Positions 58,801-64,000 of a DNA stretch of 64,000 nt are shown one piece after another. A model generated the notes under the pieces. That model worked only from the letters and a program-made list of their open reading frames with translations, did no database searches and was not told the DNA's origin. The DNA is from an uncultured Acidobacteriota bacterium (GTDB lineage Bacteria; Acidobacteriota; Vicinamibacteria; Marinacidobacterales; SMYC01). Both the position numbers and the translations under genes were made by a program. The stretch lies in NCBI GenBank assembly GCA_947259165.1, contig CAMYKY010000005.1, positions 1 through 64,000 of the forward strand, read 5' to 3'. Within the stretch, counting starts at the first letter, position 1; the number at the start of each line of letters is the position of its first letter.

Positions 58801-61575
58801 ATGCCCAGTTCGCGCTCACTCGTCATCTCGCCGAGTGCGATTGCCGGCATCCTGCTCCTGTTGTGCGCGGGCGGAGCCGGCGCGTCCACGTTCGAATTGA
58901 CCGGCACAGTTGTCGAGGAGTCCGGACTCGGACTTGCCGGCGCGACGTTAACGCTGATCCATGACGCAACCGGCCTCGTTCGCACGACCACGAGCAACGA
59001 CGCCGGACGCTACACGTTCCCCGCCACGGCTCCAGGCGAGTACTCCCTCGAAGTCGAGCTCGACGGCTTTGCCACGTCACGCTTTGCCGGACTTCGCTAT
59101 TTCGCCGACACCAAACCGATCTTCAACATCACGCTGAGGCTTCGCGCGGTTCAAGAATCGATGACATTCACCGGTGAGGCGCCGCTCATCAACGTGAGTC
59201 AATCGCAGCTGGGTCTCTCCGTCGAAGAGCGTCAACTCCGTGAGCTCCCCCTGACACGCCGTGATTACCTGGAGCTCGCTCCCGTAGAAGGTGGCGTGCA
59301 TGAAATCGTGGAGTCGACCCCTGGGGCAGACGTCGACGGAGCTCCACTTCAAACTCTCAACGGTGCCAACGCTCACTACAGTACGTACCACCTCGACGGA
59401 TTCGGCAACACCCGGGACCAGCACGGTGTCGTTCATATCGATGTGGATGTGGATGCCATCGAGGAGTTCCGCGTCATCAGCGGGCAGTTCTCCGCAGAGT
59501 ACGGGCAAAGCCTGACCGGCATCGTGAGCGCGACCACGCGCTCCGGCAGCAATGATTTCCACGGAAGCTTCTTCACGTACATCCGGCCAGGAAGTTGGGA
59601 CGCCGACGATCCACTCACCGGGGCGAGCACGGCACTCGACCGTCAAGAGCTCGGGTTTACTTTTTCGGGACCGATTATCGAAGATCGCACCCATTTCTTC
59701 ACGAGTTTCTCGTACCGGAACCAGGACGACGACGTCGTCGTGACCGCACCTTTCGACGACGGGCGTTTCGCGGGCGTGTTCACGCTGCCATCGAGCCGCC
59801 AGCGACTTCTCATGAAGCTAACGCACCAACTCTCCCCACGGCACCAACTCTCAGTGAAGGGCGTGTTCTCTGAGCTCGAAAGCGTCGAGGGCGTCGGGGG
59901 ATTCGATATTTTCGACAACCGGCAAGACACCTTGAACGAGGACGCCTCGGTTTTCGCCACGCTCGCTTCCGATCTCGGTAGCGCTTGGAGCGAGCTTCGC
60001 GTGGGTTTCATGCGCGAGAGGTTTAGCACTCGCGGTCAACCCCCACCGCTCGGCTTCGTCGAGATCCATCCGACGCTCGGCAACATCGGTAACCCGACGC
60101 GATTCCAGCGAGCCGACGAGGATCACGTCGAGATCTCCGAAACGCTGAGCCTTCCCGCGGGAAACCATCGAGTCAAGACCGGTTTCAATTTCTTGCGCAT
60201 CGGGAGTACCTCAGAGCTCGACCGTTACACGGACGGTGTGATGTTCGCTCCTCCGAGCCTTGTCGATGGACCGCTTCTTTTCTGGCAAGCCGTCTCCAGG
60301 GGGGATACGAATACCGTTGTCGAACGGAGCGAGAACCATTTCCAGATTTTCCTTCAAGACGATTGGCAGCTCACTCCGTTTTTGACGTTGAATCTCGGCT
60401 TGCGCTGGGAGAAAGAGACGTCGGTGCCGGACAACAACAACGTGGCACCGCGGCTCGGATTTCACTGGGACGCGAGCCAAGATGGCCGGACCTCGGTGCG
60501 CGGAGGCTACGGAATTTTCTATAGCTTCGTGTTTTCGTTCGTCGATTCGTTGGAGCGACTCTACGGTTCGGGTGGCCGCCAAATCGTCGCGCTCACAGAC
60601 AACGAGCCCGTCGACGTTCTCCTCGATGCAACTATTGCCACGAACTTCTTCGTCAACGCCCCGGAGTGGGCGCCCGCCGACCGAAAAGCGCCGAAGGCGC
60701 AGCACCTCACCTTCGGTATCGAACGCGAGATTCTTCCGACCGTCACCGCCGCCGTCGACGTGAGCTACATACGCGGCGAAAGCCTCATCCGACCCCTCGA
60801 CCTCAACGCCCCCGAGTTTTTCGACTACACATCCGGCGGGAGTCGCTCCAGCGCCGCCGCGGACGCGACCCGGCCGCTCGGAGTGCCCGGCGAGCCTATC
60901 CCGCCCGGCGCCGTCAACGAGCTTGCCGAGGGCTACCCCTTCGCCGGATACCGTGATCTCTACTTGATGTCGTCGCGAGGCACGAGTCGCCATTGGGGAG
61001 TCAAGCTCAACGTGACCAAGCGCTACGCGACCGACTTCCTGATCCAGGCCGTTTACAACTGGTCGCGCACCGAAAACGACGGCGACGATTTTCGCGTCAC
61101 CGAATCCTTGGCGCTCGACCCCGCGCGACCCGCGCTCGAGTGGGGACGAAGCGCCACCGATATCCCTCACGCGTTCGTGCTCAACGGTGTGTGGGACGCG
61201 CCCTTCGGTTTTCGACTCGCGGGGCTCTTCCGCGCCCGGTCGGGTCGACCGGTCGATCCGCGCGTCGATGCCGATCTCGACGGGGACCGAAAACTCCGCG
61301 AGCGCGCGGCGCGCGCCGGAGCCATTCTGGAAAGAAACAGCTTCCGCATCGGCTCGACGGCAACAGTCGATATTTCCGTCGCCAAGGAGTGGGAATTCGG
61401 AGAAGCGCGTCGCATCGAAGCGGCCCTCGATGTGTTCAACCTGACGAATCGTCTCAACCCGAGGCAGTTCCTGCAATCGTACGGCGCGTCCGCAGAGCCT
61501 TTGCCCACGTTTGGCGAGCTCGTCCAGGCCGCACCGCCGCGCCAGGTCCAGCTTTCCGTCCGGTTCACCTTTTAG
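58801..61575 (+). CDS. TonB-dependent receptor with carboxypeptidase-regulatory-like N-terminal domain
   Basis: This is a 924-residue outer-membrane receptor. After a signal peptide (AIAGILLLLCAGGAGAS), residues about 30-115 form a carboxypeptidase-regulatory-like beta-sandwich (ELTGTVVEESGLGLAGATLT; NDAGRYTFPATAPGEYSLEV). A plug domain follows (YHLDGFGNTRDQHGVVHIDV; GQFSAEYGQSLTGIVSATTR), then a long barrel (LFLQDDW-like strand near 515, FLTLNLGLRWEKETSVPDNN), ending in RQVQLSVRFTF with a terminal Phe. This Oar-like architecture is common in Acidobacteriota and Bacteroidota. It imports or binds a polymer- or peptide-derived ligand with TonB energy. It is followed by the M50-HlyD fusion gene. 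Confidence 0.92.
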   Translation: MPSSRSLVISPSAIAGILLLLCAGGAGASTFELTGTVVEESGLGLAGATLTLIHDATGLVRTTTSNDAGRYTFPATAPGEYSLEVELDGFATSRFAGLRYFADTKPIFNITLRLRAVQESMTFTGEAPLINVSQSQLGLSVEERQLRELPLTRRDYLELAPVEGGVHEIVESTPGADVDGAPLQTLNGANAHYSTYHLDGFGNTRDQHGVVHIDVDVDAIEEFRVISGQFSAEYGQSLTGIVSATTRSGSNDFHGSFFTYIRPGSWDADDPLTGASTALDRQELGFTFSGPIIEDRTHFFTSFSYRNQDDDVVVTAPFDDGRFAGVFTLPSSRQRLLMKLTHQLSPRHQLSVKGVFSELESVEGVGGFDIFDNRQDTLNEDASVFATLASDLGSAWSELRVGFMRERFSTRGQPPPLGFVEIHPTLGNIGNPTRFQRADEDHVEISETLSLPAGNHRVKTGFNFLRIGSTSELDRYTDGVMFAPPSLVDGPLLFWQAVSRGDTNTVVERSENHFQIFLQDDWQLTPFLTLNLGLRWEKETSVPDNNNVAPRLGFHWDASQDGRTSVRGGYGIFYSFVFSFVDSLERLYGSGGRQIVALTDNEPVDVLLDATIATNFFVNAPEWAPADRKAPKAQHLTFGIEREILPTVTAAVDVSYIRGESLIRPLDLNAPEFFDYTSGGSRSSAAADATRPLGVPGEPIPPGAVNELAEGYPFAGYRDLYLMSSRGTSRHWGVKLNVTKRYATDFLIQAVYNWSRTENDGDDFRVTESLALDPARPALEWGRSATDIPHAFVLNGVWDAPFGFRLAGLFRARSGRPVDPRVDADLDGDRKLRERAARAGAILERNSFRIGSTATVDISVAKEWEFGEARRIEAALDVFNLTNRLNPRQFLQSYGASAEPLPTFGELVQAAPPRQVQLSVRFTF

Positions 61576-61631
61576 ATACAATAGCCGCTCCCTCGTGGGG
61601 ACTTGTCGCTTCAGCCACGAAGGGGGTGCAA

Positions 61632-63923
61632 GTGTCCGTCGAAAAAGGCTTTAGACTTCGATCCGATCTCGAGATCGAGCCCGTCGATGAGAACGGGACC
61701 CTCTCCTATGTCATCAAGGACCCCCGAAGCGAGCGCTTTTTCCGCATCAAGCCCCTCGAATACTTTCTGATCTCTCAGTTCGACGGGAACACCGACCTCG
61801 CCGAGATCCGCCGGCGCGCTTCGGACGAGAAGAAAGTGCTCGTCTCGAATGACGTGCTCACTCGCTTCGCGGCCAAATTCCAGGATCTGGGTCTTCTCGT
61901 CGATAGCGCCGAGCGTGGCGAGCCGCGCCCGACTCCGAAAACGCGCTGGAGCGGCCTCACGCTGAAGTTTCCGCTGACCAACCCCGAGCGCTTCTTGAAT
62001 TGGCTCTACCCGATGACCCGGTGGTGTTTTAGCGCCGGCTTCGTGATGTTCATGGCCGCGACTATCGTCGCCGCAATCCTCGTGGCCGTTGCGAACCGCC
62101 ACGACCTCGCCTTCGGTCTCGAGCGGGTCGTGAGCCTCGAGGGTCTGCTCTTCGTCCTCATCACCGTCTCGATTGTCACCGTTCTCCACGAGCTTGCACA
62201 CGCGCTGGCCTGTCGCCACTTCGGCGGCAGGGTGACCGACATGGGGTTTTTACTCCTGTATTTCCTTCCGTGTTTCTACGTGAACGTCAGCGATACCTAT
62301 TTGTTCCGTGAGAAACGGCAGCGACTTTGGGTCGTCTTCGCTGGCGGGTACTTCGAGATGTTCATCTGGGCGGCAAGTGTCTTCACGTGGCGAGTCGTTG
62401 CTCAAGAAACGTTTGTCTCCCGAGCGCTGTTCGTGGTCATTGCCGTGTGCGGTATCCGCAGCCTCTTTAATTTCAACCCACTGATCAAAATGGACGGCTA
62501 CTTTCTGCTGTCCGATTATTTGGGAATCTCGAACTTGAGACAGGAAGCCCTGTCGGGACTAACGGGGTTTTTTCGTCGCGCGGCCGCGCTCGAGGTCCAA
62601 CCACCGTCGCCCGAGATTTCCGCGCGGCGCATCCTCGCACTCCGTGGCGATCGATTTTTGCTGCTCTTTGGTGGCGCGGCGCTTCTATACACGGTCGCCC
62701 TCGTCGGGTTTCTCGTTCTCCACTCCGGCGAGTGGGTGTTCGACAATTTTGGCGCGAACGCGCTGGGTCTCTTCTCCGTCGTTCTTGTCGGGCTCTTGCA
62801 CAAGCCCGCCATCAGCGCCGCCTCGGCCGCGAAGCGGACCAGCAAGGAAAAGTGGAAGGATCTGGGCGAGCACAAGCGCCGCCCCCGCTTCGTCGTGATC
62901 TGGGGTGGTCTGTCCTTGTTGGTGGCCGCGCTGCCCTGGCAGCTCCGGGTTCCATCGGAGCTGTCCGTTCTCCCCCAAGAGAGGCAGACGGTACGAGCAC
63001 CGGCCGATGGTCGTATCGAGAGGATCCACGTGCGCGAGGGCGCGCGGGTCGAGCGAGGGGACCTGATTCTAGAATACGACGCGAACGAGCTTCTATTGGA
63101 GCGACGGACCAAGCAGGCGGAGCTCTCGCAGGCCGAGGAGGAGCTCCGGCTCCTCGCCAAGCAGAACCCGTCGTTTCGGGAAGAGATTCGGGTCGAAGAA
63201 CGTGCGCTCGAAACAACACGAGCACAGGAACAAGCAGCGACTCAGGATTTCGACCGAGCGCAGCGGTTGTGGACGCCGGGGTTGATTTCCCAGGATGCGT
63301 TCGACAGTGCCCAAAACAAGCTCGACGAGGCCGAGGCGAAGACACGAGAGGCGGAAGCCCGCATCGCGCTCGCGCGCAAGCAAAGCCCCGACAGCCGCAA
63401 CGAGCAGATGGAAGTCCTTCATTTGAAGGACGCCGGCGCACAGAGAGCGGCTATCGAAAAATTGCAGGCTGAGCTCGATCAGCTAGACGACCTTCTAGCA
63501 CGATCGAAAATTTACGCCTCGATCGCAGGCACGCTCACGACCTACCGCTTCAAAGAAAAAATCGGTGAATATCTCGAGGAGGGCGCGGACGTTTGCGAGA
63601 TCGTGAACGACGACCAGGTTGTCCTGGAGATGCCCGTCGCCGAGAAGGACATCGACATCATCGAGCTAGGCCAAGACGTCAAGTTCAAAGTGCGCGGCTA
63701 CCCCTCTCGGAGCTTCCGCGCCACCGTCGACGAGATTGCGCCAGTGGCGACGACGGACGGCAACGTATCCACCATCCTTCTTCGCGCCTATATCGACAAC
63801 GAAGACCGCGTGTTGAAACCGGGCATGACCGGAGTCGCCAAGGTCTACTGCGGCATGAGCTTTGTCGCGAACGTGCTCACTCGCGATATCGTCCGCTTCA
63901 TCAGAACCGAATTCTGGCTCTAG
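61632..63923 (+). CDS. Three-part fusion: PqqD/RRE-like domain, M50 metalloprotease, HlyD-type adaptor
   Basis: This protein has about 763 residues. Residues about 1-95 resemble a PqqD/RRE-type winged helix (SYVIKDPRSERFFRIKPLEY; ISQFDGNTDLAEIRRRAS). A site-2 (M50) metalloprotease part with about six or seven helices follows, with zinc motif HELAHAL near residue 186 and the downstream Asp in NFNPLIKMDGYFLLSDYLGI. The last ~320 residues form a HlyD/RND-adaptor: lipoyl half-motif VRAPADGRIERIHVREGARV, a long coiled coil, and EKIGEYLEEGADVCEIVNDD. The start is GTG 61632 or 61626 with AGGGGG just upstream; the much longer upstream frame overlaps the receptor gene and is rejected. It probably cleaves and exports a peptide. 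Confidence 0.82.
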   Translation: MSVEKGFRLRSDLEIEPVDENGTLSYVIKDPRSERFFRIKPLEYFLISQFDGNTDLAEIRRRASDEKKVLVSNDVLTRFAAKFQDLGLLVDSAERGEPRPTPKTRWSGLTLKFPLTNPERFLNWLYPMTRWCFSAGFVMFMAATIVAAILVAVANRHDLAFGLERVVSLEGLLFVLITVSIVTVLHELAHALACRHFGGRVTDMGFLLLYFLPCFYVNVSDTYLFREKRQRLWVVFAGGYFEMFIWAASVFTWRVVAQETFVSRALFVVIAVCGIRSLFNFNPLIKMDGYFLLSDYLGISNLRQEALSGLTGFFRRAAALEVQPPSPEISARRILALRGDRFLLLFGGAALLYTVALVGFLVLHSGEWVFDNFGANALGLFSVVLVGLLHKPAISAASAAKRTSKEKWKDLGEHKRRPRFVVIWGGLSLLVAALPWQLRVPSELSVLPQERQTVRAPADGRIERIHVREGARVERGDLILEYDANELLLERRTKQAELSQAEEELRLLAKQNPSFREEIRVEERALETTRAQEQAATQDFDRAQRLWTPGLISQDAFDSAQNKLDEAEAKTREAEARIALARKQSPDSRNEQMEVLHLKDAGAQRAAIEKLQAELDQLDDLLARSKIYASIAGTLTTYRFKEKIGEYLEEGADVCEIVNDDQVVLEMPVAEKDIDIIELGQDVKFKVRGYPSRSFRATVDEIAPVATTDGNVSTILLRAYIDNEDRVLKPGMTGVAKVYCGMSFVANVLTRDIVRFIRTEFWL

Positions 63924-63953: not shown

Positions 63954-64000
63954 CTAGAGTTCGTCTCGAGTCATCGACTTGATGAAGTCTTCGAGGGTCG
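63954..64000 (-). CDS. C-terminal tail of a minus-strand gene (5' end outside window)
   Basis: On the minus strand the last 47 bases read in frame TLEDFIKSMTRDEL followed by TAG at 63954-63956. It looks like the charged C-terminal end of a protein whose gene lies beyond the window and is convergent with the M50-HlyD fusion. The short length gives no functional clue. Confidence 0.3.
   Translation of the reverse strand, partial: TLEDFIKSMTRDEL

Follow-up and report, generated by a model that had tools for sequence, protein, structure and literature searches.

A predicted RRE, a site-2 protease and a HlyD-type adaptor fused in one protein of an uncultured Acidobacteriota bacterium: a solo branch of a family plausibly serving giant-protein export

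What might a single membrane protein do that combines a recognition domain, an intramembrane protease and an export adaptor? This question is raised by a gene near the end of the window, i.e., the whole stretch of 64,000 nucleotides analysed here (GenBank assembly GCA_947259165.1, contig CAMYKY010000005.1, positions 1 to 64,000), which originates from an uncultured Acidobacteriota bacterium. A first-pass annotation had read the gene product as a one-protein device for peptide processing and export. The gene and its parts are the following:

61620-61626, + strand: Shine-Dalgarno-like AAGGGGG, 5 bases before the GTG start codon of the fusion gene (sequence)
61632-63923, + strand: coding sequence of the RRE / M50 site-2 protease / HlyD-type adaptor fusion, 763 aa (ORF, domain matches, orthologues, dN<dS)
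61644-61907, + strand: predicted RRE (PqqD-fold) domain, aa 5-92 (family profile, Pfam of relatives, structure model, Foldseek)
61674-62801, + strand: RRE and M50 region matching NF041824 (daptide MpaP), aa 15-390 (E 4e-66, 223.7 bits)
62187-62201, + strand: HELAH zinc motif within a hydrophobic segment, aa 186-190 (motif comparison)
62469-62498, + strand: NFNPLIKMDG, second site-2 protease (S2P) motif, whose Asp288 is presumably the third zinc ligand, aa 280-289 (motif comparison)
62940-63830, + strand: HlyD_D23/HlyD_3 adaptor domain, aa 437-733 (Pfam and NCBIfam)
63255-63290, + strand: RLS motif RAQRLWTPGLIS in a predicted hairpin, aa 542-553, predicted to dock to TolC (motif from PMC3391258)

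Full-length orthologues with 61-73% identity are present in three further genomes of the same GTDB family, and the orthologue comparison indicated purifying selection on all three domains (dN 0.18-0.32, dS 0.8-2.6). No second full-length copy was found in the window genome, a MAG of 172 contigs that is 84% complete, where the other matches were partial and covered the adaptor part only. Hydrophobic segments are predicted at aa 130-157, 159-194, 255-275, 340-370, 372-391 and 420-440. A model of the full-length protein, built from an alignment with a single relative, had a pLDDT of 45 and gave no usable structure for the S2P and adaptor parts. Orthologues possess an N-terminal CxxC...CxxC zinc-ribbon-like stretch (L014:9087-9230, L015:4100-4244), which is missing from the window copy.

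RREs are familiar from the biosynthesis of RiPP peptides, and the ~95 N-terminal residues of the protein had been noted as PqqD/RRE-like, with a profile search as the proposed check. Such a search with a profile of 35 relatives against the PDB best matched TbiB1 (6e-5), TfuB1 (0.0096), PqqD (0.03), PqqCD and PaaA, and the sixth match, a protocadherin (E 1.3), is unrelated and due to chance. Searched one by one, 24 of these 35 proteins gave a match to Pfam PqqD (E no higher than 1, the lowest being 1.2e-7); the ~92 N-terminal residues of the window copy alone gave none. Modelled alone, the window domain was composed of three strands and three helices (mean pLDDT 83.5), and the top ten matches of this model in a Foldseek search of the PDB were all RRE-containing structures (best E 0.01, with none below E 0.001; TMq 0.58-0.66; probability 0.94-1.00), among them TglHI and a LynD-type heterocyclase, which we take to contain RREs. 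The methods agree on the identity of the matches, and both the family profile and the domain model thus bear out the N-terminal domain as a predicted RRE of the PqqD fold.

The HELAH motif and a conserved downstream Asp in the middle part had likewise been pointed out, and both were recovered. As the 58 proteins that we compared were chosen for having HExxH, its occurrence in 58/58 is by selection; in all but one of them (57/58), the second S2P motif is found at an invariant distance, the exception being the Thalassospira protein. The match to Pfam Peptidase_M50 remained below the cut-off (19.1 vs. 27.2 bits), and the middle part is assigned as a putative M50/site-2 protease because of its two zinc motifs and the match to NF041824. 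This model describes MpaP, the intramembrane metalloprotease of daptide synthesis, which shares with the window protein the fusion of an RRE to an M50/S2P domain, along ~360 profile positions. However, the MpaP model contains no HlyD domain, the score of the window protein lies below the curated cut-off of 300 bits, and the gene is not part of a daptide cluster: neither daptide precursors nor MpaB/C/D/M were found beside it by ORF listing and Pfam analysis of the neighbours. In the daptide paper, RRE-dependent leader removal by MpaP is proposed. The epipeptide maturation metalloprotease YydH/LiaK (NF058609) also has the M50 core in common with the window protein (52 bits), but this score is far below the cut-off of 225, and there is no epipeptide operon.

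The C-terminal part was confirmed as a complete HlyD-type adaptor, with HlyD_D23 (3e-21, 76 bits), HlyD_3 (6e-18) and RND_mfp (4.9e-32, 111.2 bits) all above cut-off. Within its predicted hairpin, RAQRLWTPGLIS conforms to RxxxLxxxxxxS, the motif by which MacA and AcrA bind TolC (PMC3391258). The strict RLS motif occurs in 10 of 28 hairpins of the clade that includes the window protein (the 'solo' clade, see below), vs. 2.5 expected from shuffling, and is missing from most members; outside this clade it was found in 6 of 27 hairpins (1.9 expected). The window genome harbors several TolC-type OEP loci above cut-off. Due to the RLS motif, the outer-membrane partner is more likely a TolC-type channel than a TonB receptor. 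The window protein thus has the adaptor domains and the RLS motif of the periplasmic adaptors of the HlyD/MacA/EmrA/AcrA type, but its N-terminal part consists of an RRE and a polytopic protease, and no pump is encoded next to it.

The most economical reading of this domain anatomy is leader binding, cleavage within the membrane and hand-over to the outer membrane. The N-terminal RRE, presumably cytoplasmic, would capture a substrate by its leader-like N-terminal segment, and the S2P domain would cut this segment inside the membrane. The HlyD domain, in the periplasm and presumably assembled with further copies into a ring, would then dock via the RLS tip of its hairpin onto a TolC-type outer-membrane channel, through which the product would be passed on.

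The genomic neighborhood bears on the nature of such a substrate. Directly upstream of the fusion gene is located:

58801-61575, + strand: TonB-dependent-receptor-like outer-membrane protein (OMP_b-brl_4, CarboxypepD_reg; Pfam, synteny)

This protein has no PDB relative by sequence. Further upstream, on the minus strand, follow MscS-like, thioesterase, class-V aminotransferase and 3HCDH-ECH genes, and this order is kept in two of the related genomes (G002, G003) and, within its short contig, in the third (G001). The outer-membrane gene precedes the fusion gene directly in 4/4 loci of the window's GTDB family and in 0/25 of the other solo-clade loci, some of them cut off close to the gene; the suggested conservation of the TonB-receptor linkage therefore holds within one GTDB family but not across the clade. 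On the other side, the contig extends 1.7 kb past the window and contains one long minus-strand gene, gamma-glutamyltransferase-like by eye. The small peptide genes and the ABC/RND partner that had been expected beyond position 64000 did not appear in the ORF listing of this stretch up to the contig end. In three family genomes, the orthologue is directly followed by a gene for a PLP protein with a Tat-like N-terminus, whose best PDB match is PvdN:

L014:11523-12827: PvdN-like PLP gene downstream of the orthologue
L015:480-1784: PvdN-like PLP gene downstream of the orthologue
L016:11265-12632: PvdN-like PLP gene downstream of the orthologue

The synteny with the relatives breaks after the window gene at an interspersed repeat, which starts just 3' of the gene (window 63959-64000; G000:C5:63959-64159) and has dozens of partial matches in the genome.

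This arrangement could be taken for RiPP maturation and export, where the leader of a small modified peptide is bound by the RRE and removed by the S2P domain, the adaptor exports the product and the TonB receptor retakes it, while the Tat-signal PvdN-like PLP enzyme encoded downstream in relatives tailors the peptide in the periplasm. The MpaP layout of RRE plus S2P, the PLP protein in three family genomes and the linked receptor in all four would agree with such a pathway. We nevertheless regard it as unlikely, as neither a fitting precursor ORF nor a tailoring cluster or a fitting ABC transporter was found in the window, the contig end or the family block by ORF listing and neighbor Pfam analysis, and the gene block of the GTDB-family relatives has no room for a precursor gene. 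The PLP gene, moreover, is missing from the window locus, the best copy elsewhere in the genome being ~39% identical vs. 72-79% among the relatives, and in other families the solo gene adjoins housekeeping genes. Of the proposed peptide device, all three domain calls therefore stand, including the match of the N-terminus to RRE families, but the peptide setting does not: the gene is conserved without a linked peptide gene or pump. A peptide device is possible, yet unsupported by the gene context.

How widespread is the fusion, and with which genes does it travel? The N-terminal half was matched at 1e-8 or better in 66 of 396 Acidobacteriota genomes, not necessarily all of them encoding fusions. 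The family is widespread and little described; no description of an RRE-M50-HlyD fusion was found in the open-licence literature, represented mostly by titles and abstracts. In a tree of 58 proteins, the window protein falls into a separate clade of 29 rows (support 96/92), outside the branch associated with a SecA-like ATPase and LEPR-XLL proteins, whose protein layout is the same. At the 29 loci of this clade, many of them on short contigs, the ORFs were compared with a few reference TolC, adaptor and SecA-like proteins from loci with such partners. The only partner candidate was an adaptor-like ORF near L070, and the other match, at L065, was the separated C-terminal half of the fusion gene itself; with few references, short contigs and a family listing of the 25 commonest among the neighbors, the absence of partners is not proven at every solo locus. 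Correspondingly, no adaptor, TolC or pump gene was present among the neighbors of the window gene. The window genome (84% complete) contains one SecA only and no extra SecA-like ATPase, and no LEPR-XLL protein over the cut-off (best 12.8 vs. 17 bits). The window clade is thus a 'solo' branch without SecA-like, LEPR-XLL, adaptor or TolC partners nearby.

By eye, the neighbors in one solo lineage comprise RlmI, poly(A) polymerase, TPR and HD-GYP/GGDEF genes. An HD-GYP/GGDEF gene lies repeatedly near M50-HlyD in several Acidobacteriota families (L059, L061, L066, L067, L070, L072, L073, L079).

Such a solo gene may be explained in other ways. Site-2 proteases commonly act in signalling, and the substrate of the S2P domain could be a membrane-bound regulator; the RRE and HlyD parts would then serve sensing instead of export. 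The proximity of several solo genes to an HD-GYP/GGDEF gene and the lack of linked export partners are in line with such regulated intramembrane proteolysis. We consider it improbable because the adaptor is complete and conserved (65-75% identity among the orthologues), the RLS tip is kept in the window copy, and relatives adjoin TolC and other adaptors. The protein might also be the adaptor of an ordinary, unlinked pump of the MacB, EmrB or RND type, its protease and RRE serving quality control of pump or cargo. The HlyD part does score above cut-off as an RND-type adaptor, and Pfam analysis of 74 pooled solo-clade neighbors revealed two ABC ATPases among the 25 commonest families listed. However, pump linkage is not conserved across the solo clade, and the operons of the relatives contain no ABC or RND pump and often a SecA-like ATPase, which makes this very unlikely in our view. 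That the solo branch has lost its machine and retained a minor proteolytic role would account for the missing partners, but purifying selection acts on all three domains, adaptor included, and we assign a similarly low probability to such a remnant.

The relatives outside the solo clade point to a different kind of cargo. Proteobacterial M50-HlyD proteins, annotated as 'PqqD family peptide modification chaperone', 'site-2 protease' or 'HlyD family', have the same RRE-S2P-HlyD layout and fall into clades distinct from that of the window protein. Many of their genes adjoin extra HlyD adaptors, TolC, a short SecA-like ATPase and/or giant repeat proteins. The following loci were read, including two from Acidobacteriota, in regions of varying completeness:

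L048 (Methylosinus): giant LamG protein, DUF3467, GAF-HlyD, M50-HlyD, SecA-like, HlyD, TolC
L050 (Pseudosulfitobacter): giant protein, DUF3467, HlyD, M50-HlyD, SecA-like; second HlyD upstream of the giant gene; no TolC within the stretch
L115 (Thalassospira): giant LEPR-XLL protein, DUF3467, HlyD, M50-HlyD, HlyD, TolC; SecA-like gene not annotated
L049, L117, L121 and L122: large repeat protein, TolC, adaptors, M50-HlyD; SecA-like gene not annotated
L118 (Eleftheria): VCBS protein, HlyD, M50-HlyD; HlyD and TolC on the other side of the VCBS gene
L051 (Magnetospirillum): 493-aa ELWxxDGT protein (not giant), TolC, two adaptors
L124 (Phyllobacterium): 1412-aa protein annotated as HrpK-domain, one HlyD; no TolC within the stretch; an ordinary T1SS pair 3 kb away from the gene group
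L125 (M382): HlyD, M50, SecA-like; upstream open frame of at least 4238 codons (ORF calling only)
L116 (Ensifer, unannotated): long frame upstream and further ORFs by ORF calling; SecA-like gene by separate search
L119 (Cupriavidus, unannotated): long frame upstream and further ORFs by ORF calling
L052 (Rhizobium johnstonii): M50 gene at the start of the record; SecA-like gene by separate search
L120 (Calothrix): no such partners seen
L123 (Tistrella, unannotated): frame with a LEPR-like motif nearby
L053: true daptide cluster
L087 (Acidobacteriota): GAF-HlyD-like, M50-HlyD and TolC-like genes
L093 (Acidobacteriota): M50-HlyD and SecA-like genes

The short SecA-like ATPase has ~640-660 aa (PF07517 at 1e-103 in L048). 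It occurs beside RRE-M50-HlyD in L048, L050, L093, L116 and L125, and its annotations include prepilin peptidase, translocase and helicase. In a separate search with the SecA-like protein, M50-HlyD was encoded within about 5 kb in 12/12 plasmid records among the best 40 of 84 matches; these records are the matches at ~48% identity or more, which clustered at the top, and the other rows of the best 40 are ordinary secA. As in type I secretion (HlyB-HlyD-TolC) and LapA-type adhesin export, an adaptor and TolC accompany giant repeat proteins, but the gene groups of the relatives lack an ABC ATPase, and an N-terminal rather than a C-terminal signal is suggested. Judging from the proteobacterial relatives, the family would handle giant surface proteins as its cargo rather than small peptides.

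This N-terminal signal may be the LEPR-XLL domain, or a looser LEPR/LExR motif. Three giant proteins, those of Thalassospira (EPIEPRILLSAD), Methylosinus (DTLEPRVLLNAD) and Pseudosulfitobacter (ETFEPRVLLSAD), matched LEPR-XLL above the cut-off of NF012209. The motif was matched by eye in four more, from Eleftheria (ALEARLMFDAA), E. coli (ALESRQLFDGAA), Kosakonia (SLEPRMLFDGA) and Tistrella (ALEPRMMFDAA), which weigh less because they were matched after the first three were known. Altogether, LEPR/LExR is present in seven readable N-termini of giant proteins from such loci; the annotated start of the Azospirillum protein displays no such motif, perhaps owing to mis-annotation. Giant or large proteins bearing an N-terminal LEPR-XLL motif (e.g. 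LEPLEPRILLSAD) are encoded at L126, L127, L128, L137, L138, L139 and L140, and show no obvious Sec signal by eye. Only two papers naming the domain were found in the full-text open-licence literature.

A survey of the 396 Acidobacteriota genomes, less selected than the matches by eye, detected LEPR-XLL at E<1e-6 in exactly two, G347 (in a frame of 8748 aa) and G125. These are the two genomes whose M50-HlyD groups with the SecA-linked plasmid proteins in the tree, and in both the LEPR proteins are encoded on contigs other than that of M50-HlyD. The class-mate genome G030 (L140, G030:C69) encodes a LEPR-XLL protein (1.3e-5) with no M50-HlyD gene detected and is thus a counter-example to a strict pairing of the two. 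Four weaker matches (E 0.002-0.007) may be due to chance.

In Proteobacteria and a few Acidobacteriota, the relatives probably do the processing in machines that export giant surface proteins with a LEPR/LExR leader, and by homology it is plausible that the family as such serves to export giant proteins bearing a leader at the N-terminus. As the window branch lacks the diagnostic partners, an export role is carried over to it from relatives of other clades that are about 25-33% identical. With moderate confidence, we read the window protein as a solo-clade member that combines recognition, processing and hand-over in one inner-membrane unit, and whose relatives would process giant-protein cargo. 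A wider proposal, which we make tentatively, is that the logic of RRE and leader also serves secretion: a LEPR/LExR leader would be read by the RRE and cut by the S2P domain, with transport driven in one branch by the SecA-like ATPase and delivery through HlyD and TolC, and the window protein would represent a solo branch with a cargo of its own. With an RRE, a membrane protease and an export adaptor joined in one protein, and with relatives encoded near giant LEPR/LExR proteins and SecA-like ATPases, the fusion family may represent an export route not recognised so far, in which the cargo is read by a motif at its N-terminus; the RRE of the family is a candidate reader for the LEPR-XLL domain.

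Three systems were set aside. RSP, the Ig-like protein of IncHI plasmids, was rejected as a characterised relative of the enterobacterial cargo because its reported export is type IV-dependent; DDxP proteins and the Moraxella McbAB system come with ordinary T1SS genes. Finally, a further branch of the family was apparent in Acidobacteriota, in which the M50-HlyD gene is paired with a gene for a GAF-HlyD-like adaptor (L080, L084, L088, L091).
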